This document shows, piece by piece, positions 1-64,000 of a DNA stretch of 64,000 bases. The first letter of the stretch is position 1, and every line of letters begins with the position of its first letter. Both the position numbers and the translations under genes were made by a program. Source of the DNA: Brachycybe producta (taxonomy: Eukaryota > Arthropoda > Diplopoda > Playtdesmida > Andrognathidae); the NCBI GenBank assembly GCA_036925085.1, contig JAUPFP010000075.1, positions 248,001 to 312,000 of the forward strand, written 5' to 3'. The notes under the pieces are model-generated. The model was given only the letters and a program-made list of their open reading frames with translations. It did no database searches and was not told where the DNA came from.

Positions 1-84
1 ATCCAAATACTGACTGGGCCCAATGTTGCTTAACTTTGGTGATCAGATGAGAACCAGTGTGTTCAACATGGTATGGCCGTTGAC
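1..84 (-). rRNA. 5S rRNA copy 1, partial (3' end cut by window)
   Basis: Visible changes C40T and C78T. Confidence 0.9.
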
Positions 85-271
85 ACCCGAAAATGTACAA
101 GTTCAACTTTCGAAAGATCTAAATAAGTTAACTCTCCACTTCAAAAAATACTTATTACAGTTAACTATTATTGTGTGCATTTTCAGTTATTTATATAAAA
201 TAAGTGTTCAATTTTATCATGCCAGTTATTAATATATGATTCCCATTATTTAAAAAATAGAAAAAAATTAT

Positions 272-389
272 GCCAACAACACCCAGAATTCCCAGGCAGT
301 CACCCATCCAACTACTGACTGGGCCCTATGTTGCTTAACTTTGGTGATCAGACGAGAACCAGTGTGTTCAACATGGTATGGCCATTGAC
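272..389 (-). rRNA. 5S rRNA copy 2, divergent
   Basis: C6T, A37G, C40T, T63A, C78G, A103T; flank A. It keeps the usual animal G37. Confidence 0.88.
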
Positions 390-578
390 ACACCAAAATG
401 TACAACTTCAACTTTCGAAAGATCTAAATAAGTTAACTCTCCACTTCAAAAAAAATACTTGTTACACTCAACTATTATTGTGTGCATTTTCAGTTATTTA
501 TATAAAATAAGTGTTCAATTTTATCATGCCAGTTATTAATATATGATTCCCATTATTTAAAAATTAGAAAAAAATTAT

Positions 579-696
579 GCCAACAACACCCATTATTCCC
601 AGGCAGTCACCCATCCAAGTACTGACTGGGCCCAATGTTGCTTAACTTTGGTGATCGGATGAGAACCAGTGTGTTCAACATAGTATGGCCGTTGAC
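579..696 (-). rRNA. 5S rRNA copy 3
   Basis: C15T and C104A; flank A. Confidence 0.9.
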
Positions 697-883
697 ACCC
701 CAAAATGTACAAGTTCAACTTTCGAAAGATCTAAATAAGTTAACTCTCCACTTCAAAAAATAATTATTACAGTTAACTATTATTGTGTGCATTTTCAGTT
801 ATTTATATAAAATAAGTGTTCAATTTTATCATGCCAGTTATTAATATATGATTCCCATTATTTAAAAAATAGAAAAAAATTAT

Positions 884-1001
884 GCCAACAACACCCAGTA
901 TTCCCAGGCAGTCACCCATTCAAGTACTGCCTAGGCCCAATGTTGCTTAACTTTGGTGATCAGATGAGAACCAGTGTGCTCAACATGGTATGACCGTTGA
1001 C
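884..1001 (-). rRNA. 5S rRNA copy 4, class L
   Basis: Adds C9T and A23G; flank A. Confidence 0.9.
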
Positions 1002-1189
1002 ACCCCAAAATGTACAAGTTCAACTTTCGAAAGATCTAAATAAGTTAACTCTCCACTTCAAAAAAATACTTATTACAGTTAACTATTATTGTGTGCATTT
1101 TCAGTTATTTATATAAAATAAGTGTTCAATTTTATCATGCGAGTTATTAATATATGATTCCCATTATTTAAAAAATAGAAAAAAACTAT

Positions 1190-1307
1190 GCCAACAACAC
1201 CCAGTATTCCCAGGCAGTCACCCATCCAAGTACTGACTGGGCCCAATGTTGCTTAACTTTGGTGATCAGATGAGAACCAGTGTGTTCAACATGGTATGGC
1301 CGTTGAC
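1190..1307 (-). rRNA. 5S rRNA copy 5
   Basis: Only C40T; flank A with ATAG leader. Confidence 0.92.
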
Positions 1308-1491
1308 ACCCCAAAATGTACAAGTTCAACTTTCGAAAGATCTAAATAAGTTAACTCTCCACTTCAAAAAACACTTGTTACATTTCACTATTATTGTGTG
1401 CATTTTTAGTTATTAATATAAAATAAGTGTTCAATTTTATCATGCCAGTTATTAATAGATGATTCCCATTATTTAAAACATGAAAAAAAAC

Positions 1492-1609
1492 ACCAACAAC
1501 ACACAGTATTCCCAGGCAGTCACCCATCCAACTACTGACTGGGCCCTATGTTGCTTAATTTTGGTGATCAGACGAGAACCAGTGTGTTCAACTTGGTATG
1601 GCCATTGAC
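1492..1609 (-). rRNA. 5S rRNA copy 6, divergent
   Basis: C6T, T17A, A37G, C40T, G51A, T63A, C78G, G107T; T8 flank. Relative of copy 2. Confidence 0.86.
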
Positions 1610-1795
1610 ACACCAAAATGTACAACTTTAACTTTCGAAGGATCTAAATAAGTTACCTCTCCACTTAAAAAAATACTTTTTACCCTCAACTATTATTGTG
1701 TGCATTTTCAGTTATTTATATAAAATAAGTTTTCAATTTTATAATACCAGGTATTAATAGATGATTCCCATTATTTAAAAAATGAAAAAAAATAT

Positions 1796-1913
1796 GCCAA
1801 CAACACCCCGCATTCCCAGGCAGTCAACCATACAAGTACTGACTAGGCCCAATGTTGCTTAACTTTGGTGATCGGATGAGAACCAGTGCATTCAACATGG
1901 TATGGTTGTTGAC
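1796..1913 (-). rRNA. 5S rRNA copy 7, divergent
   Basis: G7A, G8A, C24T, A25G, C69T, G82T, G87T, A103G, T105G; T8 flank. Confidence 0.86.
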
Positions 1914-2099
1914 ACCCCAAAACGTACAAGTTCAACTTTCGAAAGATCTAAATAAGTTAACTCTCCACTTCAAAAAATACTTATTACAGTTAACTACTAT
2001 TGTGTGCATTTTCAGTTATTTATATAAAATAAGTGTTCAATTTTATCATGCCAGTTATTAATATATGATTCCCATTATTTAAAAAATGAAAAGAAATAC

Positions 2100-2217
2100 A
2101 CCAACAACACCCAGTATTCCAAGGCAGTCACCCATCCAAGTACTGACTGGGCCCAATGTTGCTTAACTTTGGTGATCGGATGAGAACCAGTGTGTTCAAC
2201 ATGGTATGGCCGTTGAC
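2100..2217 (-). rRNA. 5S rRNA copy 8
   Basis: Only G97T; flank B. Confidence 0.92.
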
Positions 2218-2404
2218 ACCCCGAAATGTACAAGTTCAACTTTCGAAAGATCTAAATAAGTTAACTCTCCACTTCAAAAAATACTTATTACAGTTAACTA
2301 CTATTGTGTGCATTTTCAGTTATTTATATAAAATAAGTGTTCAATTTTATCATGCCAGTTATTAATATATGATTCCCATTATTTAAAAAATAGAAAAAAA
2401 TTAT

Positions 2405-2522
2405 GCCAACAACACCCAGTATTCCCAGGCAGTCACCCTTCCGAGTACTGACTGGGCCCAATGTTGCTTAACTTTGGTGATTGGATGAGAACCAGTGTGT
2501 TCAACATGATATGGCCGTTGAC
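2405..2522 (-). rRNA. 5S rRNA copy 9, class GI
   Basis: Adds G41A and T84A; flank A. Confidence 0.9.
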
Positions 2523-2709
2523 ACCCCAAAATGTACAAGTTCAACTTTCGAAAGATCTAAATAAGTTAACTCTCCACTTCAAAAAATACTTATTACAGTT
2601 AACTATTATTGTGTGCATTTTCAGTTATTTATATAAAATAAGTGGTCAATTTTATCATGCCAGTTATTAATATATGATTCCCATTATTTAAAAAATAGAA
2701 AAAAAGTAT

Positions 2710-2827
2710 GCCAACAACACCCAGTATTCCCAGGCAGTCAACCATCCAAGTACTGACTGGGCCCAATGTTGCTTAACTTTGGTGATCGGATGAGAACCAG
2801 TGTGTTCAAAATGGTATGGCTATTGAC
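2710..2827 (-). rRNA. 5S rRNA copy 10, class N
   Basis: Flank A with ATAC leader; upstream spacer lacks one A (CTAATAAG form). Confidence 0.9.
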
Positions 2828-3013
2828 ACCCCAAAATGTACAAGTTCAACTTTCGAAAGATCTAATAAGTTAACTCTCCACTTCAAAAAATACTTATTAC
2901 AGTTAACTATTATTGTGTGCATTTTCAGTTATTTATATAAAATAAGTGTTCAATTTTATCATGCCAGTTATTAATATATGATTCCCATTATTTAGAAAAT
3001 AGAAAAAAATTAT

Positions 3014-3131
3014 GCCAACAACACCAAGTATTCCCAGGCAGTCACCCATTCAAGTACTGCCTAGGCCCAATGTTGCTTAACTTTGGTGATCAGATGAGAA
3101 CCAGTGTGTTCAACATGGTATGGCCGTTGAC
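3014..3131 (-). rRNA. 5S rRNA copy 11, class L
   Basis: Adds G106T; flank A. Confidence 0.9.
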
Positions 3132-3307
3132 ACCCCAAAATGTACAAGTTCAACTTTCGAAAGATCTAAATAAGTTAACTCTCCACTTCAAAAAAATACT
3201 TATTACAGTTAACTATTATTGTGTGCATTTTCAGTTATTTATATAAAATAAGTGTTCAATTTTATCATGCCAGTTATTAATAGATGATTCCCATTATTTA
3301 AAAAATG

Positions 3308-3311
3308 AAAA
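3308..3311 (-). terminator. Pol III terminator, flank B (model copy 12)
   Basis: The RNA strand reads GGT-GTA-TTT-C-TTTT-C-A, so the first run of four T is T4 and a T6 run lies further on at 3300-3305. Position 118 is T instead of C, leaving a wobble with G1. Some transcripts may read on to the T6 run. Confidence 0.7.
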
Positions 3312-3339
3312 GAAATACACCAACAACACCCAGTATTCC

Positions 3340-3357
3340 CAGGCAGTCACCCATCCA
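3340..3357 (-). promoter_or_regulatory. 5S internal promoter box C (model copy 12)
   Basis: RNA positions 80-97, TGGATGGGTGACTGCCTG, the strongest TFIIIA contact in known animal 5S genes. Class G (T80C), class L (G82A) and class N (G87T) change it. Confidence 0.85.
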
Positions 3358-3364
3358 AGTACTG

Positions 3365-3370
3365 ACTGGG
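3365..3370 (-). promoter_or_regulatory. 5S intermediate element (model copy 12)
   Basis: RNA positions 67-72, CCCAGT. Classes H and H2 (C67T C68G), T (C68A) and L (C69T T72G) are altered here, so their TFIIIA binding may differ. Confidence 0.7.
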
Positions 3371-3372
3371 CC

Positions 3373-3387
3373 CAATGTTGCTTAACT
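3373..3387 (-). promoter_or_regulatory. 5S internal promoter box A (model copy 12)
   Basis: RNA positions 50-64 of a consensus copy, containing AGTTAAGCAAC. This is the TFIIIA/TFIIIC contact region of type 1 RNA polymerase III promoters. Classes H, H2, B1 and V carry substitutions in it (T53G, C57T, A50C). Confidence 0.85.
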
Positions 3388-3458
3388 TTGGTGATCGGAT
3401 GAGAACCAGTGTGTTCAACATGGTATGGCCGTTGACACCCCGAAATGTACAAGTTCAA

Positions 3459-3468
3459 CTTTCGAAAG
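3459..3468 (-). promoter_or_regulatory. Upstream palindrome CTTTCGAAAG at -32 to -23
   Basis: A perfect 10-bp palindrome at the same distance upstream of nearly every copy. It sits where arthropod 5S genes usually have a TATA-like start-site element, and it contains one of only three CpGs in the consensus unit. A promoter role is inferred. Variants are TTTTGAAAG upstream of copies 28 and 132, and TTTCAAAAG upstream of the H2 copies. Confidence 0.55.
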
Positions 3469-3612
3469 ATCTAAATAAGTTAACTCTCCACTTCAAAAAA
3501 TACTTATTACAGTTAACTACTATTGTGTGCATTTTCAGTTATTTATATAAAATAAGTGTTCAATTTTATCATGCCAGTTATTAATATATGATTCCCATTA
3601 TTTAAAAAATAG

Positions 3613-3619
3613 AAAAAAA
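3613..3619 (-). terminator. Pol III terminator, flank A (model copy 13)
   Basis: A T7 run on the RNA strand starts five bases after C118 (GGC-ATAA-T7). A second T6 run follows at 3604-3609. Runs of four or more T are the standard RNA polymerase III stop. This is the commoner flank. Confidence 0.85.
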
Positions 3620-3623
3620 TTAT

Positions 3624-3741
3624 GCCAACAACACCCAGTATTCCCAGGCAGTCACCCATCCGAGTACTGACTGGGCCCAATGTTGCTTAACTTTGGTGAT
3701 CGGATGAGAACCAGTGTGTTCAACATGATATGGCCGTTGAC
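3624..3741 (-). rRNA. 5S rRNA copy 13, class GI
   Basis: No further change seen; flank A. Confidence 0.92.
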
Positions 3742-3928
3742 ACCCCAAAATGTACAAGTTCAACTTTCGAAAGATCTAAATAAGTTAACTCTCCACTTCA
3801 AAAAATACTTATTACAGTTAACTATTATTGTGTGCATTTTCAGTTATTTATATAAAATAAGTGGTCAATTTTATCATGCCAGTTATTAATATATGATTCC
3901 CATTATTTAAAAAATAGAAAAAAATTAT

Positions 3929-4046
3929 GCCAACAACACCCAGTATTCCCAGGCAGTCAACCATCCAAGTACTGACTGGGCCCAATGTTGCTTAACTTTG
4001 GTGATCGGATGAGAACCAGTGTGTTCAAAATGGTATGGCTATTGAC
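3929..4046 (-). rRNA. 5S rRNA copy 14, class N
   Basis: Flank A; upstream spacer of the CTAATAAG form. Confidence 0.9.
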
Positions 4047-4232
4047 ACCCCAAAATGTACAAGTTCAACTTTCGAAAGATCTAATAAGTTAACTCTCCAC
4101 TTCAAAAAATACTTATTACAGTTAACTATTATTGTGTGCATTTTCAGTTATTTATATAAAATAAGTGTTCAATTTTATCATGCCAGTTATTAATATATGA
4201 TTCCCATTATTTAGAAAATAGAAAAAAATTAT

Positions 4233-4350
4233 GCCAACAACACCAAGTATTCCCAGGCAGTCACCCATCCAAGTACTGACTGGGTCCAATGTTGCTTAAC
4301 TTTGGTGATCGGATGAGAACCAGTGTGTTCAACATGGTATGGCCGTTGAC
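4233..4350 (-). rRNA. 5S rRNA copy 15, class S
   Basis: Flank A with TTTAGAAAA variant beyond the T run. Confidence 0.91.
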
Positions 4351-4535
4351 ACCCCAAAATGTACAAGTTCAACTTTCGAAAGATCTAAATAAGTTAACTC
4401 TCCACTTCAAAAAATACTTATTACAGTTAACTATTATTGTGTGCATTTTCAGTTATTTATATAAAATAAGTGTTCAATTTTATCATGCCAGTTATTAATA
4501 TATGATTCCCATTTAAAAAATAGAAAAAAAATTAT

Positions 4536-4653
4536 GCCAACAACACCCAGTATTCCCAGGCAGTCACCCATCCAAGTACTGACTGCACCCAATGTTGCTT
4601 CACTTTGGTGATCGAATGAGAACCAGTGTGTTCAACATGGTATAGCCGTTGAC
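4536..4653 (-). rRNA. 5S rRNA copy 16, class H
   Basis: Flank A8 in a spacer shortened by 4 bp. Confidence 0.89.
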
Positions 4654-4841
4654 AACCCAAAATGTACAAGTTCAACTTTCGAAAGATCTAAATAAGTTAA
4701 CTCTCCACTTCAAAAAAATACTTATTACAGTTAACTATTATTGTGTGCATTTTCAGTTATTTATATAAAATAATTGTTCAATTTTATCATGCCAGTTATT
4801 AATATATGATTCCCATTATTTAAAATATAGAAAAAAATTAT

Positions 4842-4959
4842 GCCAACAACACCCAGTATTCCCAGGCAGTCACCCATTCAAGTACTGCCTAGGCCCAATG
4901 TTGCTTAACTTTGGTCATCAGATGAGAACCAGTGTGTTCAACATGGTATGGCCGTTGAC
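4842..4959 (-). rRNA. 5S rRNA copy 17, class L
   Basis: Adds C44G; flank A. Confidence 0.9.
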
Positions 4960-5146
4960 ACCCCGAAATGTACAAGTTCAACTTTCGAAAGATCTAAATA
5001 AGTTAACTCTCCACTTCAAAAAATACTTATTACAGTTAACTACAATTGTGTGCATTTTCAGTTATTTATATAAAATAAGTGTTCAATTTTATCATGCCAG
5101 TTATTAATATATGATTCCCATTATTTAAAAAATAGAAAAAAATTAT

Positions 5147-5264
5147 GCCAACAACACCCAGTATTCCCAGGCAGTCACCCATCCGAGTACTGACTGGGCC
5201 CAATGTTGCTTAACTTTGGTGATCGGATGAGAACCAGTGTGTTCAACATGGTATGGCCGTTGAC
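5147..5264 (-). rRNA. 5S rRNA copy 18, class G
   Basis: Flank A; upstream spacer reads TTTACAG where most have TTTTCAG. Confidence 0.92.
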
Positions 5265-5451
5265 ACCCCAAAATGTACAAGTTCAACTTTCGAAAGATCT
5301 AAATAAGTTAACTCTCCACTTCAAAAAATACTTATTACAGTTAACTATTATTGTGTGCATTTACAGTTATTTATATAAAATAAGTGGTCAATTTTATCAT
5401 GCCAGTTATTAATATATGATTCCCATTATTTAAAAAATAGAAAAAAATTAT

Positions 5452-5569
5452 GCCAACAACACCCAGTATTCCCAGGCAGTCAACCATCCAAGTACTGACT
5501 GGGCCCAATGTTGCTTAACTTTTTTGATCGGATGAGAACCAGTGTGTTCAAAATGGTATGGCTATTGAC
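5452..5569 (-). rRNA. 5S rRNA copy 19, class N
   Basis: Adds C46A and C47A, which break helix III; flank A. Confidence 0.88.
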
Positions 5570-5756
5570 ACCCCAAAATGTACAAGTTCAACTTTCGAAA
5601 GATCTAAATAAGTTAACTCTCCACTTCAAAAAATACTTATTACAGTTAACTATTATTGTGTGCATTTTCAGTTATTTATATAAAATAAGTGTTCAATTTT
5701 ATCATGCCAGTTATTAATATATGATTCCCATTATTTAAAAAATAGAAAAAAATAAT

Positions 5757-5874
5757 GCCAACAACACCCAGTATTTCCAGGCAGTCACCCATCCAAGTAC
5801 TGACTGGGCCCAATGTTGCTTAACTTTGGTGATCGGATGAGAACCCGTGTGTTCAACATGGTATGGCCGTTGAC
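5757..5874 (-). rRNA. 5S rRNA copy 20
   Basis: T29G and G99A without C68A, a partial class T; flank A. Confidence 0.9.
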
Positions 5875-6062
5875 ACCCCAAAATGTACAAGTTCAACTTT
5901 CGAAAGATCTAAATAAGTTAACTCTCCACTTCAAAAAAATACTTATTACAGTTAACTATTATTGTGTGCATTTTCAGTTATTTATATAAAATAAGTGTTC
6001 AATTTTATCATGCCAGTTATTAATAGATGATTCCCATTATTTAAAAAAATGAAAAGAAATAC

Positions 6063-6180
6063 ACCAACAACACCCAGTATTCCCAGGCAGTCACCCATCC
6101 AAGTACTGACTGGGCCCAATGTTACTTAACTTTGGTGATCGGATGAGAACCAGTGTGTTCAACATGGTATGGCCGTTGAC
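6063..6180 (-). rRNA. 5S rRNA copy 21, class B1
   Basis: C57T gives a G21-U57 wobble; flank B. Confidence 0.91.
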
Positions 6181-6368
6181 ACCCCGAAATGTACAAGTTC
6201 AACTTTCGAAAGATCTAAATAAGTTAACTCTCCACTTCAAAAAAATACTTACTACAGTTAACTATTATTGTGTGCATTTTCAGTTATTTATATAAAATAA
6301 GTGTTCAATTTTATCATGCCAGTTATTAATATATGATTCCCATTATTTAAAAAATAGAAAAAAATTAT

Positions 6369-6486
6369 GCCAACAACACACAATATTCCCAGGCAGTCAC
6401 CCATCCAAGTACTAACTGGGCCCAATTTTGCTTAACTTTGGTGATCGGATGAGAACCAGTGTGTTCAACATGGTATGGCCGCTGAC
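6369..6486 (-). rRNA. 5S rRNA copy 22, divergent
   Basis: A5G, C60A, C73T, C104T, G107T; flank A. C60A unpairs G18. Confidence 0.87.
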
Positions 6487-6672
6487 GCCCCAAAATGTAC
6501 AAGTTCAACTTTCGAAAGATCTAAATAAGTTAACTCTCCACTTCAAAAAAGACTTATTACAGTTAACTATTATTGTGTGCATTTTCAGTTATTTATATAA
6601 AATAAGTGTTCAATTTTATTATGCCAGTTATTAATAGATGATTCCCATTATTTAAAAAATGAAAAGAAATAC

Positions 6673-6790
6673 ACCAACAACACCCAGTATTCCCAGGCAG
6701 TCACCAATTAAAGTACTGACTGGGCCCAATGTTGCTTAACTTTGGTGATCAGATGAGAACCAGTGTGTTCAACATGGTATGGTCGTTGAC
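6673..6790 (-). rRNA. 5S rRNA copy 23
   Basis: G8A, C40T, G81T, G82A, G85T, so box C is heavily altered; flank B. Confidence 0.87.
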
Positions 6791-6976
6791 ACCCGAAAAT
6801 GTACAAGTTCAACTTTCGAAAGATCTAAATAAGTTAACTCTCCACTTCAAAAATTACTTATTACAGTTAACTATTATTGTGTGCATTTTCAGTTATTTAT
6901 ATAAAATAAGTGTTCAATTTTATCATGCCAGTTATTAATATATGATTCCCTTTATTTAAAAAATAGAAAAAATTAT

Positions 6977-7094
6977 GCCAACAACACCCAGTATTCCCAG
7001 CCAGTCACCCATCCAAGTACTGACTGGGCCCAATGTTGCTTAACTTTGGTGATCGGATGAGATCCAGTGTGTTCAACATTGTATGGCCGTTAAC
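6977..7094 (-). rRNA. 5S rRNA copy 24
   Basis: C3T, C15A, T32A, C94G; flank A6. Confidence 0.88.
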
Positions 7095-7281
7095 ACCCCA
7101 AAATGTACAAGTTCAACTTTCGAAAGATCTAAATAAGTTAACTCTCCACTTCAAAAAAATACTTATTACAGTTAACTATTATTGTGTGCATTTTCAGTTA
7201 TTTATATAAAATACGTGTTCAATTTTATCATGCCAGTTATTAATAGATGATTCCCATTATTTAATAAATGAAAAGAAATAC

Positions 7282-7399
7282 ACCAACAACACCCAGTATT
7301 CCCAGGCAGTCACCCATCCAAGTACTGACTGGGCCCAATGTTGCTTAACTTTGGTGATCGGATGAGAACCAGTGTGTTCAACATAGTATGGCCATTGAC
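7282..7399 (-). rRNA. 5S rRNA copy 25
   Basis: C6T and C15T; flank B. Confidence 0.9.
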
Positions 7400-7586
7400 A
7401 CCCCAAAATGTACAAGTTCAACTTTCGAAAGATCTAAATAAGTTAACTCTTCACTTCAAAAAATACTTATTACAGTTAACTATTATTGTTTGCATTTTCA
7501 GTTATTTATATAAAATAAGTGTTCAATTTTATCATGCCAGTTATTAATATATGATTCCCATTATTTAAAAAATAGAAAAAATGTTT

Positions 7587-7704
7587 GCCAACAACAAACA
7601 GTATTCCCAGGCAGTCACCCATCCAAGTACTGACTGGGCCCAATGTTGCTTAACTTTGGTGATCAGATGAGAACCAGTGTGTTCAACATGGTATGACCGT
7701 TGAC
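7587..7704 (-). rRNA. 5S rRNA copy 26
   Basis: C9T, C40T, G107T, G108T; T6 flank with AAACA leader. Confidence 0.88.
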
Positions 7705-7891
7705 ATCCCAAAATGTACAAGTTCAACTTTCGAAAGATCTAAATAAGTTAACTCTCCACTTCAAAAAAATACTTATTACAGTTAACTATTATTGCTTGCA
7801 TTTTCAGTTATTTATATAAAATAAGAATTCAATTTTATCATGCCAGTTATTAATATATGATTCCCAATATTTAAAAAATAGAAAAAATTAT

Positions 7892-8009
7892 GCCAACAAC
7901 ACCCAGTATTCCCAGGCAGTCACCCATCCAAGTACTGACTGGGCCCAATGTTGCTTAACTTTGGTGATCGGATGAGAACCAGTGTGTTCAACATGGTATG
8001 GCCGTTGAC
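7892..8009 (-). rRNA. 5S rRNA copy 27, consensus
   Basis: Unaltered body; flank A6. Confidence 0.94.
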
Positions 8010-8195
8010 ACCCCAAAATGTACAAGTTCAACTTTCGAAAGATCTAAATAAGTTAACTCTCCACTTCAAAAAATACTTATTACAGTTAACTATTATTGTG
8101 TGCATTTTCAGTTATTTATATAAAATCAGTGTTCAATTTTATCATGCCAGTTATTAATAGATGATTCCCATTATTTAAAAAATGAAAAGAAATAC

Positions 8196-8313
8196 ACCAA
8201 CAACACCCAGTATTCCCAGGCAGTCACCCATCCAAGAACTGACTGGGCCCAATGTTGCTTAACTTTGGTGATCGGATGAGAACCAGTGTGTTCAACGTGG
8301 TATGGCCGTTGAC
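8196..8313 (-). rRNA. 5S rRNA copy 28, class E
   Basis: Flank B; the upstream palindrome is changed to TTTTGAAAG. Confidence 0.9.
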
Positions 8314-8501
8314 ACCCCAAAAAGTTCAAGTACAACTTTTGAAAGATCTAAATAAGTTAACTCTCCACTTCAAAAAATACTTATTACAGTTAACTATTAT
8401 TGTGTGCATTTTCAGTTATTTATATAAAATAAGTGTTCAATTTTATCATGCCAGTTATTAATATATGATTCCCATTATTTAAAAAAATAGAAAAAAATTA
8501 T

Positions 8502-8619
8502 GCCAACAACACCCAGTACTCCCAGGCAGTCACCCATCCAAGTACTGACTGGGCCCAATGTTCCTTAACTTTGGTGATCGGATGAGAACCAGTGTGTTCA
8601 ACATGGTATGGCCGTTGAC
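8502..8619 (-). rRNA. 5S rRNA copy 29
   Basis: C57G and A101G; flank A. C57G unpairs G21 in helix II. Confidence 0.89.
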
Positions 8620-8806
8620 ACCCCAAAATGTACAAGATCAACTTTCGAAAGATCTAAATAAGTTAACTCTCCACTTCAAAAAATACTTACTACAGTTAAC
8701 TATTATTGTGTGCATTTTCAGTTATTTATATAAAATAAGTGTTCAATTTTATCATGCCAGTTATTAATATATGATTCCCATTATTTAAAAAATAGAAACA
8801 AATTAT

Positions 8807-8924
8807 GCCAACAAAACACAGTATTCCCAGGCAGTCACCCATCCAAGTACTGACTGGGCCCAATGTTGCTTAACTTTGGTGATCGGATGAGAGCCAGTGT
8901 GTTCAACATGGTATGGCCGTTGAC
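8807..8924 (-). rRNA. 5S rRNA copy 30
   Basis: T32C, G107T, G110T; the first T run is broken to TTT-G-TTT. Confidence 0.88.
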
Positions 8925-9111
8925 ACCCCAAAATGTACAAGTTCAACTTTCGAAAGATCTAAATAAGTTAACTCTCCACTTCAAAAAATACTTATTACAG
9001 TTAACTATTATTGTGTGCATTTTCAGTTATTTATATAAAATAAGTGTTTAATTTTATCATGCCAGTTATTAATATATGATTCCCATTATTTAAAAAATAG
9101 AAAAAAATTAT

Positions 9112-9229
9112 GCCAACAACACCCAGTATTCCCAGGCAGTCACCCATCTAAGTACTGACTGGGCCCAATGTTGCTTAACTTTGGTGATCAGATGAGAACC
9201 AGTGTGTTCAACATGGTATGGCCGTTGAC
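9112..9229 (-). rRNA. 5S rRNA copy 31
   Basis: C40T and G81A; flank A. Confidence 0.9.
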
Positions 9230-9416
9230 ACCCCAAAATGTACAAGTTCAACTTTCGAAAGATCTAAATAAGTTAACTCTCCTCTTCAAAAAATACTTAT
9301 TACAGTTAACTATTATTGTGTGCATTTTCAGTTATTTATATAAAATAAGTGTTCAATTTTATCATGCCAGTTATTAATATATGATTCCCATTATTTAAAA
9401 AATAGAAAAAAATTAT

Positions 9417-9534
9417 GCCAACAACACCCAGTATTCCCAGGCAGTCACCCATCTAAGTACTGACTGGGCCCAATGTTGCTTAACTTTGGTGATCGGATGA
9501 AAACCAGTGTGTTCAACATAGTATGGCCGCTGAC
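9417..9534 (-). rRNA. 5S rRNA copy 32
   Basis: A5G, C15T, C34T, G81A; flank A. Confidence 0.89.
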
Positions 9535-9721
9535 ACACCAAAATGTACAAGTTCAACTTTCGAAAGATCTAAATAAGTTAACTCTCCACTTCAAAAAATA
9601 CTTATTACAGTTAACTATTATTGTGTGCATTTTCAGTTATTTATATAAAATAAGTGGTCAATTTTATCATGCCAGTTATTAATATATGATTCCCATTATT
9701 TAAAAAATAGAAAAAAATTAT

Positions 9722-9839
9722 ACCAACAACACCCAGTATTTCCAGGCAGTCACCCATCCAAGTACTGACTGGGCCCAATGTTGCTTAACTTTGGTGATCG
9801 GATGAGAACCAGTGTGTTCAACATGGTATGGCCGTTGAC
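9722..9839 (-). rRNA. 5S rRNA copy 33
   Basis: G99A and C118T; flank A. Confidence 0.91.
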
Positions 9840-10025
9840 ACCCCAAAATGTACAAGTTCAACTTTCGAAAGATCTAAATAAGTTAACTCTCCACTTCAAA
9901 AAAATACTTATTACAGTTAACTATTATTGTGTGCATTTTCAGTTATTTATATAAAATAAGTGTTCAATTTTATCATGCCAGTTATTAATAGATGATTCCC
10001 ATTATTTAAAAAATGAAAGAAATAC

Positions 10026-10143
10026 ACCAACAACACCCAGTATTCCCAGGCAGTCACCAATCCAAGTACTGACTGGGCCCAATGTTGCTTAACTTTGGTG
10101 ATCAGATGAGAACCAGTGTGTTCAACATGGTATGGTCGTTGAC
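10026..10143 (-). rRNA. 5S rRNA copy 34
   Basis: G8A, C40T, G85T. Flank B lost one T, leaving T3-C-T3, so no T4 before the distal T6. Confidence 0.89.
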
Positions 10144-10330
10144 ACCCGAAAATGTACAAGTTCAACTTTCGAAAGATCTAAATAAGTTAACTCTCCACTT
10201 CAAAAAATACTTATTACAGTTAACTATTATTGTGTGCATTTTCAGTTATTTATATAAAATAAGTGTTCAATTTTATCATGCCAGTTATTAATATATGATT
10301 CCCATTATTTAAAAAATAGAAAAAAATTAT

Positions 10331-10448
10331 GCCAACAACACCCAGTATTCCCAGCCAGTCACCCATCCAAGTACTGACTGGGCCCAATGTTGCTTAACTT
10401 TGGTGATCGGATGAGATCCAGTGTGTTCAACATTGTATGGCCGTTGAC
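10331..10448 (-). rRNA. 5S rRNA copy 35
   Basis: C15A, T32A, C94G, sister of copy 24; flank A. Confidence 0.89.
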
Positions 10449-10636
10449 ACCCCAAAATGTACAAGTTCAACTTTCGAAAGATCTAAATAAGTTAACTCCC
10501 CACTTCAAAAAAATACTTATTACAGTTAACTATTATTGTGTGCATTTTCAGTTATTTATATAAAATAAGTGTTCAATTTTATCATGCCAGTTATTAATAT
10601 ATGATTCCCATTATTTAAAAAATAGAAAAAAACTAT

Positions 10637-10754
10637 GCCAACAACACCCAGTATTCCCAGGCAGTCACCCATCCAAGTACTGACTGGGCCCAATGTTGCT
10701 TAACTTTGGTGATAGGATGAGAACCAGTGTGTTCAACATGGTATGGCTGTTGAC
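10637..10754 (-). rRNA. 5S rRNA copy 36
   Basis: G7A and G41T; flank A with ATAG leader. Confidence 0.9.
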
Positions 10755-10941
10755 ACCCCAAAATGTACAAGTTCAACTTTCGAAAGATCTGAATAAGTTA
10801 ACTCTCCACTTCAAAAAAATACTTATTACAGTTAACTATTATTGTGTGCATTTTCAGTTATTTATATAAAATAAGTGTTCAATTTTATCATGCCAGGTAT
10901 TAATAGATGATTCCCATTATTTAAAAAATGAAAAGAAATAC

Positions 10942-11059
10942 ACCAACAACACCCAGTATTAACAGGCAGTCACCAATCCAAGTACTGACTGGGCCCAATG
11001 TTGCTTAACTTTGGTGATCAGATGAGAACCAGTGTGTTCAACATGTTATGGCCGTTGAC
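10942..11059 (-). rRNA. 5S rRNA copy 37
   Basis: C14A, C40T, G85T, G98T, G99T; flank B. Confidence 0.88.
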
Positions 11060-11246
11060 ACCCGAAAATGTAAAAGTTCAACTTTCGAAAGATCTAAATA
11101 AGTTAACTCTCCACTTCAAAAAATACTTATTACAGTTAACTATTATTGTGTGCATTTTCAGTTATTTATATAAAATAAGTGTTCAATTTTATCATGCCAT
11201 TTATTAATATATGATTCCCAATATTTAAAAAATAGAAAAAAATTAT

Positions 11247-11364
11247 GCCAACAACACCCAGTATTTCCAGGCAGTCACCCATCCAAGTACTGACTGGGCC
11301 CAATGTTGCTTAACTTTGGTGATTGGATGAGAACCAGTGTGTTCAACATGGTATGGCCGTTGAC
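11247..11364 (-). rRNA. 5S rRNA copy 38
   Basis: G41A and G99A; flank A. Confidence 0.91.
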
Positions 11365-11552
11365 ACCCCAAAATGTACAAGTTCAACTTTCGAAAGATCT
11401 AAATAAGTTAACTCTCCACTTCAAAAAATACTTATTACAGTTAACTATTATTGTGTGCATTTTCAGTTATTTATATAAAATAAGTGTTCAATTTTATCAT
11501 GCCAGTTATTAATATATGATTCCCATTATTTAAAAAATAGAAAAAAAATTAT

Positions 11553-11670
11553 GCCAACAACACCCAGTATTCCCAAGCAGTCACCCATCCAAGTACTGAC
11601 TGGGCCCAATGTTGCTTCACATTGGTGATCGGATGAGAACCAGTGTGTTCAACATGGTATAGCCGTTGAC
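11553..11670 (-). rRNA. 5S rRNA copy 39
   Basis: C10T, A50T, T53G, C95T, a partial class H; A8 flank in a full-length spacer. Confidence 0.89.
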
Positions 11671-11856
11671 ACCCCAAAATGTACAAGTTCAACTATCGAA
11701 AGATCTAAATAAGTTAACTCTCCACTTCAAAAAATACTTATTACAGTTAACTAATATTGTGTGCATTTTCAGTTATTTATATAAAATAAGTGTTCAATTT
11801 TATCATGCCAGTTATTAATAGATGATTCCCATTATTTAAAAAATGAAAAGAAATAC

Positions 11857-11974
11857 ACCAACAACACCCAGTATTCCCAGGCAGTCACCCATCCAAGTAC
11901 TGACTGGGCCCAATGTTGCTTAACTTTGGTGATCGGATGAGAACCAGTGTGTTCAACATAGTATGGCCGTTGAC
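11857..11974 (-). rRNA. 5S rRNA copy 40
   Basis: Only C15T; flank B. Confidence 0.92.
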
Positions 11975-12162
11975 ACCCCAAAATGTACAAGTTCAACTTT
12001 CGAAAGATCTAAATAAGTTAACTCTCCACTTCAAAAAATACTTATTACAGTTAACTATTATTGTGTGCATTTTCAGTTATTTATATAAAATAAGTGTTCA
12101 ATTTTATCATGCCAGTTATTAATATATGATTCCCATTATTTAAAAAAATAGAAAAAAATTAT

Positions 12163-12280
12163 GCCAACAACACCCAGTACTCCCAGGCAGTCACCCATCC
12201 AAGTACTGACTGGGCCCAATGTTCCTTAACTTTGGTGATCGGATGAGAACCAGTGTGTTCAACATGGTATGGCCGTTGAC
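12163..12280 (-). rRNA. 5S rRNA copy 41
   Basis: C57G and A101G, sister of copy 29; flank A. Confidence 0.89.
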
Positions 12281-12467
12281 ACCCCAAAATGTACAAGATC
12301 AACTTTCGAAAGATCTAAATAAGTTAACTCTCCACTTCAAAAAATACTTACTACAGTTAACTATTATTGTGTGCATTTTCAGTTATTTATATAAAATAAG
12401 TGTTCAATTTTATCATGCCAGTTATTAATATATGATTCCCATTATTTAAAAAATAGAAACAAATTAT

Positions 12468-12585
12468 GCCAACAAAACACAGTATTCCCAGGCAGTCACC
12501 CATCCAAGTACTGACTGGGCCCAATGTTGCTTAACTTTGGTGATCGGATGAGAGCCAGTGTGTTCAACATGGTATGGCCGTTGAC
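12468..12585 (-). rRNA. 5S rRNA copy 42
   Basis: Sister of copy 30, with the same broken T run. Confidence 0.88.
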
Positions 12586-12772
12586 ACCCCAAAATGTACA
12601 AGTTCAACTTTCGAAAGATCTAAATAAGTTAACTCTCCACTTCAAAAAATACTTATTACAGTTAACTATTATTGTGTGCATTTTCAGTTATTTATATAAA
12701 ATAAGTGTTCAATTTTATCATGCCAGTTATTAATATATGATTCCCATTATTTAAAAAATAGAAAAAAATTAT

Positions 12773-12890
12773 GCCAACAACACCCAGTATTCCCAGGCAG
12801 TCACCCATCTAAGTACTGACTGGGCCCAATGTTGCTTAACTTTGGTGATCGGATGAGAACCAGTGTGTTCAACATGGTATGGCCGTTGAC
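12773..12890 (-). rRNA. 5S rRNA copy 43
   Basis: Only G81A; flank A. Confidence 0.91.
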
Positions 12891-13077
12891 ACCCCAAAAT
12901 GTACAAGTTCAACTTTCGAAAGATCTAAATAAGTTAACTCTCCTCTTCAAAAAATACTTATTACAGTTAACTCTTATTGTGTGCATTTTCAGTTATTTAT
13001 ATAAAATAAGTGTTCAATTTTATCATGCCAGTTATTAATATATGATTCCCATTATTTAAAAAATAGAAAAAAATTAT

Positions 13078-13195
13078 GCCAACAACACCCAGTATTCCCA
13101 GGCAGTCACCCATCTAAGTACTGACTGGGCCCAATGTTGCTTAACTTTGGTGATCGGATGAAAACCAGTGTGTTCAACATAGTATGGCCGCTGAC
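13078..13195 (-). rRNA. 5S rRNA copy 44
   Basis: Sister of copy 32 (A5G, C15T, C34T, G81A); flank A. Confidence 0.89.
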
Positions 13196-13381
13196 ACACC
13201 AAAATGTACAAGTTCAACTTTCGAAAGATCTAAATAAGTTAACTCTCCACTACAAAAAATACTTATTACAGTAAACTATTATTGTGTGCATTTTCAGTTA
13301 TTTATATAAAATAAGTGTTCAATTTTATCATGCCAGTTATTAATAGATGATTCCCATTATTTAAAAAATGAAAAGAAATAC

Positions 13382-13500
13382 ACCAACAACACCCAGTATT
13401 CCCAGGCAGTCACCCATCCAAGTACTGACTGGGCCCCAATGTTGCTTAACTTTGGTGATCGGATGAGAACCAGTGCGTTCAACATGGTATGTCCATTGAC
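13382..13500 (-). rRNA. 5S rRNA copy 45, 119 nt
   Basis: C6T, C9A, A25G and one extra G at 64-66; flank B. Confidence 0.88.
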
Positions 13501-13689
13501 ACCCCAAAATGTACAAGTTCAACTTTCGAAAGATCTAAATAAGTTAACTCTCCACTTCAAAAAAATACTTATTACAGTTAACTATTATTGTGTGCATTTT
13601 CAGTTATTTATATAAAATAAGTGTTCAATTTTATCATGCCAGTTATTAATATATGATTCCCATTATTTAAAAAAATAGAAAAAAATTAT

Positions 13690-13807
13690 GCCAACAACAC
13701 CCAGTATTCCCAGGCAGTCACCCATTCAAGTACTGCCTAGGCCCAATGTTGCTTAACTTTGGTGATCAGATGAGAACCAGTGTGTTCAACATGGTATGGC
13801 CGTTGAC
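13690..13807 (-). rRNA. 5S rRNA copy 46, class L
   Basis: No further change seen; flank A. Confidence 0.9.
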
Positions 13808-13994
13808 ACCCCAAAATGTACAAGTTCAACTTTCGAAAGATCTAAATAAGTTAACTCTCCACTTCAAAAAAATACTTATTACAGTTAACTATTATTGTGT
13901 GCATTTTCAGTTATTTATATAAAATAAGTGTTCAATTTTATCATGCCAGTTATTAATATATGATTCCCATTATTTAAAAAATGAAAAGAAATAC

Positions 13995-14112
13995 ACCAAC
14001 AACACCCAGTATTCCAAGGCAGTCACCCATCCAAGTACTGACTGGGCCCAATGTTGCTTAACTTTGGTGATCGGATGAGAACCAGTGTGTTCAACATGGT
14101 ATGGCCGTTGAC
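13995..14112 (-). rRNA. 5S rRNA copy 47
   Basis: Only G97T, sister of copy 8; flank B. Confidence 0.92.
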
Positions 14113-14299
14113 ACCCCGAAATGTACAAGTTCAACTTTCGAAAGATCTAAATAAGTTAACTCTCCACTTCAAAAAATACTTATTACAGTTAACTACTATT
14201 GTGTGCATTTTCAGTTATTTATATAAAATAAGTGTTCAATTTTATCATGCCAGTTATTAATATATGATTCCCATTATTTAAAAAATAGAAAAAAATTAT

Positions 14300-14417
14300 G
14301 CCAACAACACCCAGTATTCCCAGGCAGTCACCCTTCCGAGTACTGACTGGGCCCAATGTTGCTTAACTTTGGTGATCGGATGAGAACCAGTGTGTTCAAC
14401 ATGATATGGCCGTTGAC
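14300..14417 (-). rRNA. 5S rRNA copy 48, class GI
   Basis: Adds T84A, as copy 9 does; flank A. Confidence 0.9.
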
Positions 14418-14604
14418 ACCCCAAAATGTACAAGTTCAACTTTCGAAAGATCTAAATAAGTTAACTCTCCACTTCAAAAAATACTTATTACAGTTAACTA
14501 TTATTGTGTGCATTTTCAGTTATTTATATAAAATAAGTGGTCAATTTTATCATGCCAGTTATTAATATATGATTCCCATTATTTAAAAAATAGAAAAAAA
14601 GTAT

Positions 14605-14722
14605 GCCAACAACACCCAGTATTCCCAGGCAGTCAACCATCCAAGTACTGACTGGGCCCAATGTTGCTTAACTTTGGTGATCGGATGAGAACCAGTGTGT
14701 TCAAAATGGTATGGCTATTGAC
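14605..14722 (-). rRNA. 5S rRNA copy 49, class N
   Basis: Sister of copy 10, including the ATAC leader. Confidence 0.9.
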
Positions 14723-14908
14723 ACCCCAAAATGTACAAGTTCAACTTTCGAAAGATCTAATAAGTTAACTCTCCACTTCAAAAAATACTTATTACAGTTA
14801 ACTATTATTGTGTGCATTTTCAGTTATTTATATAAAATAAGTGTTCAATTTTATCATGCCAGTTATTAATATATGATTCCCATTATTTAGAAAATAGAAA
14901 AAAATTAT

Positions 14909-15026
14909 GCCAACAACACCAAGTATTCCCAGGCAGTCACCCATTCAAGTACTGCCTAGGCCCAATGTTGCTTAACTTTGGTGATCAGATGAGAACCATT
15001 GTGTTCAACATGGTATGGCCGTTGAC
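14909..15026 (-). rRNA. 5S rRNA copy 50, class L
   Basis: Adds G106T and private C28A; flank A. Confidence 0.9.
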
Positions 15027-15213
15027 ACCCCAAAATGTACAAGTTCAACTTTCGAAAGATCTAAATAAGTTAACTCTCCACTTCAAAAAAATACTTATTA
15101 CAGTTAACTATTATTGTGTGCATTTTCAGTTATTTATATAAAATAAGTGTTCAATTTTATCATGCCAGTTATTAATAGATGATTCCCATTATTTAAAAAA
15201 TGAAAAGAAATAC

Positions 15214-15331
15214 ACCAACAACACCCAGTATTCCCAGGCAGTCACCCATCCAAGTACTGACTGGGCCCAATGTTGCTTAACTTTGGTGATCGGATGAGAA
15301 CCAGTGTGTTCAACATGGTATGGCCGTTGAC
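15214..15331 (-). rRNA. 5S rRNA copy 51, consensus
   Basis: Unaltered body, sister of copy 12; flank B. Confidence 0.94.
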
Positions 15332-15518
15332 ACCCCGAAATGTACAAGTTCAACTTTCGAAAGATCTAAATAAGTTAACTCTCCACTTCAAAAAATACTT
15401 ATTACAGTTAACTACTATTGTGTGCATTTTCAGTTATTTATATAAAATAAGTGTTCAATTTTATCATGCCAGTTATTAATATATGATTCCCATTATTTAA
15501 AAAATAGAAAAAAATTAT

Positions 15519-15636
15519 GCCAACAACACCCAGTATTCCCAGGCAGTCACCCATCCGAGTACTGACTGGGCCCAATGTTGCTTAACTTTGGTGATCGGAT
15601 GAGAACCAGTGTGTTCAACATGATATGGCCGTTGAC
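15519..15636 (-). rRNA. 5S rRNA copy 52, class GI
   Basis: Sister of copy 13; flank A. Confidence 0.92.
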
Positions 15637-15823
15637 ACCCCAAAATGTACAAGTTCAACTTTCGAAAGATCTAAATAAGTTAACTCTCCACTTCAAAAAA
15701 TACTTATTACAGTTAACTATTATTGTGTGCATTTTCAGTTATTTATATAAAATAAGTGGTCAATTTTATCATGCCAGTTATTAATATATGATTCCCATTA
15801 TTTAAAAAATAGAAAAAAATTAT

Positions 15824-15941
15824 GCCAACAACACCCAGTATTCCCAGGCAGTCAACCATCCAAGTACTGACTGGGCCCAATGTTGCTTAACTTTGGTGAT
15901 CGGATGAGAACCAGTGTGTTCAAAATGGTATGGCTATTGAC
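15824..15941 (-). rRNA. 5S rRNA copy 53, class N
   Basis: Flank A; CTAATAAG spacer upstream. Confidence 0.9.
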
Positions 15942-16127
15942 ACCCCAAAATGTACAAGTTCAACTTTCGAAAGATCTAATAAGTTAACTCTCCACTTCAA
16001 AAAATACTTATTACAGTTAACTATTATTGTGTGCATTTTCAGTTATTTATATAAAATAAGTGTTCAATTTTATCATGCCAGTTATTAATATATGATTCCC
16101 ATTATTTAGAAAATAGAAAAAAATTAT

Positions 16128-16245
16128 GCCAACAACACCAAGTATTCCCAGGCAGTCACCCATCCAAGTACTGACTGGGTCCAATGTTGCTTAACTTTGG
16201 TGATCGGATGAGAACCAGTGTGTTCAACATGGTATGGCCGTTGAC
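16128..16245 (-). rRNA. 5S rRNA copy 54, class S
   Basis: Sister of copy 15, but its upstream spacer leads to flank B of the next unit. Confidence 0.91.
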
Positions 16246-16431
16246 ACCCCAAAATGTACAAGTTCAACTTTCGAAAGATCTAAATAAGTTAACTCTCCAC
16301 TTCAAAAAATACTTATTACAGTTAACTATTATTGTGTGCATTTTCAGTTATTTATATAAAATAAGTGTTCAATTTTATCATGCCAGTTATTAATAGATGA
16401 TTCCCATTATTTAAAAAATGAAAAGAAATAC

Positions 16432-16549
16432 ACCAACAACACCCAGTATTCCCAGGCAGTCACCCATCCAAGTACTGACTGGGCCCAATGTTGCTTAACT
16501 TTGGTGATCGGATGAGAACCAGTGTGTTCAACATGGTATGGCCGTTGAC
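16432..16549 (-). rRNA. 5S rRNA copy 55, consensus
   Basis: Unaltered body; flank B. Confidence 0.94.
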
Positions 16550-16736
16550 ACCCCGAAATGTACAAGTTCAACTTTCGAAAGATCTAAATAAGTTAACTCT
16601 CCACTTCAAAAAATACTTATTACAGTTAACTACTATTGTGTGCATTTTCAGTTATTTATATAAAATAAGTGTTCAATTTTATCATGCCAGTTATTAATAT
16701 ATGATTCCCATTATTTAAAAAATAGAAAAAAATTAT

Positions 16737-16854
16737 GAAAACAACACCCAGTATTCCCAGGCAGTCACCCATCCGAGTACTGACTGGGCCCAATGTTGCT
16801 TAACTTTGGTGATCGGATGAGAACCAGTGTGTTCAACATGATATGGCCGTTGAC
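16737..16854 (-). pseudogene. 5S rRNA copy 56, class GI, helix I broken
   Basis: The 3' end reads GTTTTC through G116T and G117T, unpairing bases 2 and 3 of helix I. Probably non-functional; flank A. Confidence 0.75.
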
Positions 16855-17041
16855 ACCCCAAAATGTACAAGTTCAACTTTCGAAAGATCTAAATAAGTTA
16901 ACTCTCCACTTCAAAAAATACTTATTACAGTTAACTATTATTGTGTGCATTTTCAGTTATTTATATAAAATAAGTGGTCAATTTTATCATGCCAGTTATT
17001 AATATATGATTCCCATTATTTAAAAAATAGAAAAAAATTAT

Positions 17042-17159
17042 GCCAACAACACCCAGTATTCCCAGGCAGTCAACCATCCAAGTACTGACTGGGCCCAATG
17101 TTGCTTAACTTTGGTGATCGGATGAGAACCAGTGTGTTCAAAATGGTATGGCTATTGAC
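17042..17159 (-). rRNA. 5S rRNA copy 57, class N
   Basis: Flank A; CTAATAAG spacer upstream. Confidence 0.9.
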
Positions 17160-17345
17160 ACCCCAAAATGTACAAGTTCAACTTTCGAAAGATCTAATAA
17201 GTTAACTCTCCACTTCAAAAAATACTTATTACAGTTAACTATTATTGTGTGCATTTTCAGTTATTTATATAAAATAAGTGTTCAATTTTATCATGCCAGT
17301 TATTAATATATGATTCCCATTATTTAGAAAATAGAAAAAAATTAT

Positions 17346-17463
17346 GCCAACAACACCAAGTATTCCCAGGCAGTCACCCATCCAAGTACTGACTGGGTCC
17401 AATGTTGCTTAACTTTGGTGATCGGATGAGAACCAGTGTGTTCAAAATGGTATGGCTATTGAC
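17346..17463 (-). rRNA. 5S rRNA copy 58, S/N hybrid
   Basis: The 3' half is class S (G66A G106T) and the 5' half and spacer are class N (C6T G7A G18T), so a junction lies between RNA positions 18 and 66. Confidence 0.9.
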
Positions 17464-17649
17464 ACCCCAAAATGTACAAGTTCAACTTTCGAAAGATCTA
17501 ATAAGTTAACTCTCCACTTCAAAAAATACTTATTACAGTTAACTATTATTGTGTGCATTTTCAGTTATTTATATAAAATAAGTGTTCAATTTTATCATGC
17601 CAGTTATTAATATATGATTCCCATTATTTAGAAAATAGAAAAAAATTAT

Positions 17650-17767
17650 GCCAACAACACCAAGTATTCCCAGGCAGTCACCCATCCAAGTACTGACTGG
17701 GTCCAATGTTGCTTAACTTTGGTGATCGGATGAGAACCAGTGTGTTCAACATGGTATGGCCGTTGAC
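17650..17767 (-). rRNA. 5S rRNA copy 59, class S
   Basis: Flank A with the TTTAGAAAA variant. Confidence 0.91.
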
Positions 17768-17952
17768 ACCCCAAAATGTACAAGTTCAACTTTCGAAAGA
17801 TCTAAATAAGTTAACTCTCCACTTCAAAAAATACTTATTACAGTTAACTATTATTGTGTGCATTTTCAGTTATTTATATAAAATAAGTGTTCAATTTTAT
17901 CATGCCAGTTATTAATATATGATTCCCATTTAAAAAATAGAAAAAAAATTAT

Positions 17953-18070
17953 GCCAACAACACCCAGTATTCCCAGGCAGTCACCCATCCAAGTACTGAC
18001 TGCACCCAATGTTGCTTCACTTTGGTGATCGAATGAGAACCAGTGTGTTCAACATGGTATAGCCGTTGAC
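17953..18070 (-). rRNA. 5S rRNA copy 60, class H
   Basis: Sister of copy 16; shortened A8 flank. Confidence 0.89.
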
Positions 18071-18258
18071 AACCCAAAATGTACAAGTTCAACTTTCGAA
18101 AGATCTAAATAAGTTAACTCTCCACTTCAAAAAAATACTTATTACAGTTAACTATTATTGTGTGCATTTTCAGTTATTTATATAAAATAATTGTTCAATT
18201 TTATCATGCCAGTTATTAATATATGATTCCCATTATTTAAAAAATAGAAAAAAATTAT

Positions 18259-18376
18259 GCCAACAACACCCAGTATTCCCAGGCAGTCACCCATTCAAGT
18301 ACTGCCTAGGCCCAATGTTGCTTAACTTTGGTGATCAGATGAGAACCAGTGTGTTCAACATGGTATGGCCGTTGAC
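18259..18376 (-). rRNA. 5S rRNA copy 61, class L
   Basis: No further change seen; flank A. Confidence 0.9.
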
Positions 18377-18563
18377 ACCCCGAAATGTACAAGTTCAACT
18401 TTCGAAAGATCTAAATAAGTTAACTCTCCACTTCAAAAAATACTTATTACAGTTAACTACAATTGTGTGCATTTTCAGTTATTTATATAAAATAAGTGTT
18501 CAATTTTATCATGCCAGTTATTAATATATGATTCCCATTATTTAAAAAATAGAAAAAAATTAT

Positions 18564-18681
18564 GCCAACAACACCCAGTATTCCCAGGCAGTCACCCATC
18601 CGAGTACTGACTGGGCCCAATGTTGCTTAATTTTGGTGATCGGATGAGAACCAGTGTGTTCAACATGGTATGGCCGTTGAC
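18564..18681 (-). rRNA. 5S rRNA copy 62, class G
   Basis: Adds G51A; flank A. Confidence 0.91.
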
Positions 18682-18868
18682 ACCCCAAAATGTACAAGTT
18701 CAACTTTCGAAAGATCTAAATAAGTTAACTCTCCACTTCAAAAAATACTTATTACAGTTAACTATTATTGTGTGCATTTTCAGTTATTTATATAAAATAA
18801 GTGGTCAATTTTATCATGCCAGTTATTAATATATGATTCCCATTATTTAAAAAATAGAAAAAAATTAT

Positions 18869-63983: not shown

Positions 63984-64000
63984 GCCAACAACACCCAGTA
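63984..64000 (-). rRNA. 5S rRNA copy 211, partial (5' part beyond window)
   Basis: Only the last 17 bases of the RNA are visible; flank A with an ATTA leader, as in T units. Confidence 0.88.

Follow-up and report, generated by a model that had tools for sequence, protein, structure and literature searches.

CpG-specific base loss in a large tandem 5S rRNA array best read as an amplified, satellite-like gene family

Introduction

In animals, the copies of an rRNA gene usually number up to hundreds (PMC5437419). In the account of pikes (Esox) given in the same report, 5S rDNA is amplified to an extreme copy number, CG-methylated, arranged in inverted blocks and proposed to be silenced by methylation, its genes being homogeneous and its spacers more variable (PMC5437419). 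In zebrafish (maternal and somatic 5S genes) and Xenopus (oocyte and somatic 5S genes), a large and a small class of distinct sequence are reported to share one genome (PMC5513064). In Tribolium castaneum and T. freemani, defective copies are described as intermixed with the tandem 5S units, whose genes are 99.4% alike, compared with 94.1% for the spacers of T. castaneum (PMC11202950).

We analysed a window, i.e. the whole stretch of 64,000 nt at C75:248001-312000 of its own genome (G000; 295.3 Mb, 442 contigs, probably that of an animal), which consists entirely of a tandem 5S rRNA array on the minus strand, with ~305 bp per unit, crossing both window ends. A preliminary description of this DNA had proposed that the RNA stayed under structural selection while nine CpG sites decayed, three compensated helix pairs being the evidence. 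This interpretation is partly supported: bases have indeed been lost, specifically at CpG, and past constraint is visible, whereas ongoing structural selection is not. The covariation argument is weaker than claimed, with one pair misassigned. Our preferred reading is that of an amplified 5S family that turned satellite-like, constrained in the past but under no clear constraint today.

The array and the named gene copy

The features of the window are the following:

1..64000, minus strand: tandem array of ~210 5S units of ~305 bp, each a 119-bp gene and a ~186-bp AT-rich spacer (Tandem Repeats Finder, RF00001, unit cutting)
3318..3436, minus strand: 5S rRNA gene copy (RF00001, 105.7 bits), equal to the window consensus apart from C118T and A119G
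3437..3622, minus strand: spacer upstream of this gene copy, before the neighbour copy at 3623-3741 (Rfam coordinates); the array consensus spacer is homologous to that of a cluster on C66
3300..3317, minus strand: T-rich stretch 3' of the gene, Pol III terminator-like (from the sequence)

The gene had been described at 3319..3436, and Rfam places it at 3318-3436, minus strand, at full length (model positions 1-120) and with a score far above the gathering score of 38. Tandem Repeats Finder returned a single array of 209.9 copies, the Rfam search 210 RF00001 matches, and unit cutting 210 starts, 209 of the units being complete. The longest T run within the first 21 nt 3' of the gene is 6-8 in 208 of the 209 units and 4 in the remaining one. 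Across the genome, an exact 41-base spacer word gives at least 1,702 array units, 106 array genes match the consensus without a difference over 117 bases, and the arrays on C75 and C122 contain both orientations.

The copies are not uniform along the window. About 48 of the 209 belong to a subfamily with linked changes at unit positions 118-131 (C118T, A119G, A122T, T125C and T131A), spanning the gene end and the T-rich stretch. At lags 1-3, none of the 621 comparisons between neighbouring units gave an identical pair, where about 7 were expected, whereas 12, 16 and 14 identical pairs were found at lags 7, 12 and 23, respectively, so that the array seems to have grown in blocks of several units. 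At the low end of the window (about 1-12200) all 40 units are of distinct type, compared with 27-30 distinct types per 40 units elsewhere, and the last nine units carry more differences.

CpG-richer 5S genes elsewhere in the genome

The preliminary description had named a second, CpG-rich 5S locus supplying all 5S RNA as evidence that would speak against it. A CpG-richer set does exist in the same genome, and to that extent counts against the description. Among 8,855 first-look 5S candidates we scored 47, and the class counts below are lower bounds, as exact words were used and isolated matches on C3, C100 and C56 were left out. An exact 23-base word with C92 has 19 matches in the genome: 13 in class A, four in class B, one on C14 (a class-B-like gene with 6 differences) and one on C32 (a diverged fragment with 31 differences), the last two being excluded from the classes. 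The low-copy genes are:

C67:410-682 kb (L035-L044), divergent: five head-to-head gene pairs of class A, members 192-211 bp apart
C66 near 692 kb: two genes of class A
C46: one gene of class A
C66 at 680 kb: one gene of class A with A93, and so without the 23-base word
C66 at 582.5 kb: class B, five full copies and one damaged copy with a period of 312-314 bp

Class A thus comprises at least 14 genes outside arrays, all with C17, G25, G37, G61 and C92 and with 5-8 CpG, compared with two (at 6 and 40) in the array consensus gene. Over the 39 helix pairs tested, 13 of the 14 have no broken pair and the remaining gene has one. Class B has U17-A61, A25 and T63, but retains G37 and C92; these two positions separate it from the array consensus gene, with G97T as a further difference in one copy. 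The array consensus therefore equals the class B states with A37 and U92 added, and the array spacer is homologous to the class B spacer (22-23 mismatches of 185) and to that of C66:692k. Classes A, B and the array give this genome the two or more 5S sequence classes that a maternal/somatic dual system would require.

Four of the five C67 pairs have in common an intergenic stretch that is 77-85% identical (the fifth, oppositely oriented, was compared unturned only). Downstream of these four pairs, identity falls to 0.61-0.66 in five of six comparisons, near that of shuffled sequence (0.59-0.64), with L036 vs L038 at 0.78. From this, the intergenic stretch looks like a kept, shared promoter region. 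We infer that class A makes 5S RNA and that the array may add to it.

CpG sites and helix pairs

All nine letters of the preliminary description are present (T17, T29, A37, A48, A61, T63, A70, T92 and T105), whereas one of its pairs and its chance figure do not stand. Under the Rfam structure, 17-61 (helix II) and 29-48 (helix III) pair as described and are both U-A in the array consensus. Position 70, which had been joined to 92, pairs with 105 in helix V (A-U); the 70-92 pair was rejected, since in the Rfam structure 92 pairs with 85, now as G.U. The chance of three matching outcomes, given as 1 in 64, becomes about 1/8, because an ancestral CpG on each side of a pair would place it in a stack of two CpGs opposite each other: when one base is lost per CpG, such a stack leaves a Watson-Crick pair in two of four outcomes, two G.U pairs in one and a break in one.

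The CpG ancestry of the nine sites is uneven among the 14 low-copy genes. Positions 17, 37 and 61 lie in CpG in 14/14, and 92 is C in all 14 and in CpG in 13 (one has A93). Position 63 is C in seven and in CpG in six, and 48 is in CpG in one gene, on C46. Positions 29, 70 and 105 are T, A and T in all 14, i.e. their CpG ancestry has no internal support. Position 25, absent from the earlier list, is G in 14/14 and in CpG in seven. L001, an animal-like 5S gene in a bacterial bin, has C29, G48, G70 and C105, none of them in CpG. A CpG at 29-30 occurs in a bivalve primer word, the primers being derived from Mytilus edulis 5S (one match, in the text of PMC3003622), and one at 47-48 in a Bombyx probe (as given in PMC5482885).

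Consequently, of the three compensated pairs (17-61, 29-48 and 70-105), only 17-61 differs between the low-copy genes and the array. The other two were already in place: 70-105 is A-U in 14/14 class A genes and 29-48 is U-A in 13 and U.G in one, so both changes are either older than the split of the loci or were exchanged among them. The exception, C46:1155522-1155640 (L028), is a 5S gene whose U29.G48 is intermediate between C-G and U-A. Between L001 and the array, seven pairs differ in both bases yet still pair, four of these lying outside the earlier list, and pair 8-111 is unpaired in L001; judged by sequence, these paired differences are ordinary 5S covariation. At the paired sites of the preliminary description, four pair-keeping and no pair-breaking events, compared with 20 and 42 among array variants, give p 0.015, and p 0.098 against variants in five or more copies, the ancestor of 29-48 and 70-105 being in both cases an assumed one.

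The states of pair 17-61 were followed across 11 other array samples, in 297 units kept out of 323 genes found (spacing within 285-325 bp, at most 30 differences): U-A in 260, C.A in 15, U.G in 12, A.A in six, U.U in three and C.C in one. A G.U step is, from these sequences, a plausible route at this pair. A heavily decayed subfamily on C185 and C141 (L022, L023 and L025; 9/297 units) accounts for nine of these 12 U.G copies; it has T24, G25, T40 and U17.G61, yet also A37 and T92, which implies that the order of CpG losses differed among lineages. A strict line from class A through class B to the array is contradicted by these nine copies, as they combine T17, G25 and G61 with A37 and T92. The C17 copies of the window (18/209) are not favoured as ancestral remnants either: they carry A61, are in full linkage with A77T, and cluster B is T17-A61.

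CpG-specific loss and methylation

Compared with the nearest class A gene (C67_556k_m), the array has changed at 6/14 CpG bases, 0/51 other G/C and 1/54 A/T (p 3.6e-5; this reference was picked after the fact, and p ranges from 3.6e-5 to 0.009 over all 14 class A genes), and every change is a CpG transition except that at position 40. By this comparison of sequences, the CpG-specific loss in the array is real. Since L001 carries C17, G37, G61, C63 and C92, the array states are derived, and with L001 as sole outgroup the CpG excess is non-significant (6/18 CpG vs 6/47, p 0.077). The L001 contig (1-5648) was binned as bacterial yet holds U1, U2, 5S and histone 3' stem-loops, and is thus an animal-like locus.

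The window has an observed/expected ratio of 0.36 for CpG, 1.43 for TpG and 1.27 for CpA, compared with 0.85, 1.13 and 1.12 in four pooled non-array loci (36 kb, their own 5S genes included; single loci 0.60-1.19 for CpG), whose GC content is 31-35%. Among the window genes, the remaining CpG bases are the most variable (pi 0.24 at four CpG bases vs 0.061 at other G/C), and 32 of the 36 gene variants in five or more copies lie outside CpG, where few CpG remain. A partial DNMT1 replication-foci domain (DNMT1-RFD) on C7 scored 28.5 bits (cut-off 22), and 29.4 bits in a second search; with a sub-threshold CXXC finger nearby, a DNMT1-like gene is predicted in this genome, and germline methylation is plausible given this domain. 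Such methylation of the array would be the simplest cause of the CpG bias. Searches of viral contigs (five patterns), plasmids and phages returned no match, and literature searches for array-type 5S words, and for CpG, methylation, deamination or compensatory change in 5S, found no such report.

Constraint on the gene, past and present

Constraint on the gene is supported for the past, whereas the structural selection proposed is not seen in the present copies. Between the array and class B, the gene differs at 2/119 positions and the spacer at 22/185 (p 0.0008, gaps excluded), and this 2:22 divergence departs from the 66:74 polymorphic sites of the array (p 2.3e-4). As the gene diverged far more slowly than the spacer, the lineage leading to the array was constrained. 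In the window, however, pi is higher in the gene (0.0505) than in the spacer (0.0248), and the same holds in 11/11 other array samples (sign test 0.0005, the samples being related); in a functional array under concerted evolution, the gene would instead be the more conserved part. In the other arrays, the difference almost disappears once sites are matched by base class (gene vs spacer pi 0.124 vs 0.109 at G/C, 0.060 vs 0.056 at A/T), and at non-CpG G/C sites of the window pi is 0.061 in the gene and 0.019 in the spacer. The safe statement is that the gene in the array shows no extra constraint relative to the spacer.

For the helices, we used 39 pairs, 34 from Rfam and five that we added. All 39 are standard in the array consensus, and 62/209 window copies have no broken pair, while 147/209 have at least one. 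The distinct window gene variants comprise 42 pair-breaking, 20 pair-keeping and 25 unpaired ones, with null means of 39.9, 20.4 and 26.6; ongoing structural selection is therefore unsupported by the variant classes, as the counts match random placement. No pair-restoring double change occurs in the 209 window copies, the sole double change being U.U at 69-106, in six of them, and in the 297 other array copies 13 double-change cells keep pairing and 23 break it. Pair-breaking variants have lower copy numbers than pair-keeping ones (p 0.023; p 0.046 against keeping and unpaired variants together), a gap that is absent for transitions alone (p 0.74), and spacer variants are present in fewer copies than keeping and unpaired gene variants (p 0.001). 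These copy-number differences are a hint of weak selection.

Discussion

The window probably belongs to a 5S rDNA array that was amplified and turned satellite-like. It looks more like an amplified, now drifting family than a gene set under tight current control, a reading that follows from the scattered CG-richer 5S genes of the same genome and is supported by its three classes with graded CpG loss. The founder of the array would have been drawn from a functional 5S lineage. CpG loss is graded over class A, class B and the array consensus, which adds A37 and U92, and the RNA stayed foldable. The path was not one straight line: the decayed subfamily with U17.G61 and G25, yet A37 and U92, points to repeated CpG losses or to their spread by conversion. 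Germline methylation presumably drove the CpG bias. In the array, now amplified to at least 1,702 units, constraint on a single copy is no longer visible; most array copies may have lost function, and 5S RNA would probably be supplied by the low-copy genes, alone or together with intact array copies. Against this satellite-like reading, many array copies could work, given the intact consensus, the 62/209 unbroken copies, the 106 exact-consensus genes and the T runs; the copy numbers hint at weak selection and gene and spacer are about equal in the other arrays once matched by base class; and the low-copy genes, as counted here, are only 14 plus a few.

By analogy with Xenopus and with zebrafish, where in the latter 2,330 maternal and 12 somatic 5S genes are reported (PMC5513064), the array might be a maternal (egg) set and the low-copy genes a somatic one, with defective array copies tolerated. 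A large array beside a few dispersed genes with other upstream sequences would fit, as would a foldable consensus and slow divergence before amplification; array variation without clear constraint, and just 106 genes with the exact consensus out of at least 1,702 units, make it unlikely. In a more specific form, which we regard as quite doubtful, a few divergently paired, CpG-richer genes would coexist with an array RNA that CpG decay moved, via G.U at 17-61 and with a sister cluster still surviving, to a new compensated state, possibly one used in eggs. The preliminary description, in which the array is the working 5S set whose helices are held by current selection while methylation erodes CpG, draws on the intact consensus structure, the low divergence from class B, the CpG-specific change and the weak copy-number differences among variants. 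It is very unlikely, as pairs break at a random rate, variability is higher in the gene than in the spacer, window copies lack pair-restoring double changes (and breaks outnumber kept pairs among those elsewhere), and a single one of the three pairs differs between the low-copy genes and the array.

The CpG loss itself could have arisen without methylation, through a general G/C-to-A/T pressure in an AT-rich genome, with chance fixation in the founder. The low GC content of the non-array loci, the position of most frequent gene variants outside the few remaining CpG and the non-significant excess relative to L001 are in line with this, but it is quite unlikely in view of the unchanged non-CpG G/C bases relative to the nearest class A gene, the CpG deficit with TpG and CpA excess of the array, and the DNMT1-like domain.

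If the satellite-like reading is true, a structural RNA gene is preserved at several stages of CpG decay within one genome, where homologous spacers can serve as a clock, and the interplay of methylation, amplification and RNA structure becomes testable: are large 5S arrays egg-specific, reservoirs or dead satellites? If the dual reading is true, the genome records how methylation can push a structural RNA into a new state. The commonest 5S copy in an assembly, moreover, may not be the working RNA.

With the pike arrays, as described, the present array has in common the extreme copy number, the inverted blocks (here on C75 and C122) and the proposed silencing by methylation; in pikes CG methylation is reported and the spacer is the more variable part, whereas here methylation would be a plausible cause of the CpG depletion, CpG is already lost and the gene varies more (PMC5437419). 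As in Xenopus and zebrafish, a large and a small class differ in sequence within one genome, although here the classes are known from sequence and the array copies lack clear constraint (PMC5513064). Tandem units with intermixed defective copies recall Tribolium, in which, as reported, the genes are more alike than the spacers (PMC11202950). Higher variability of the gene than of the spacer in a large array would be the reverse of what the pike and the Tribolium reports describe.
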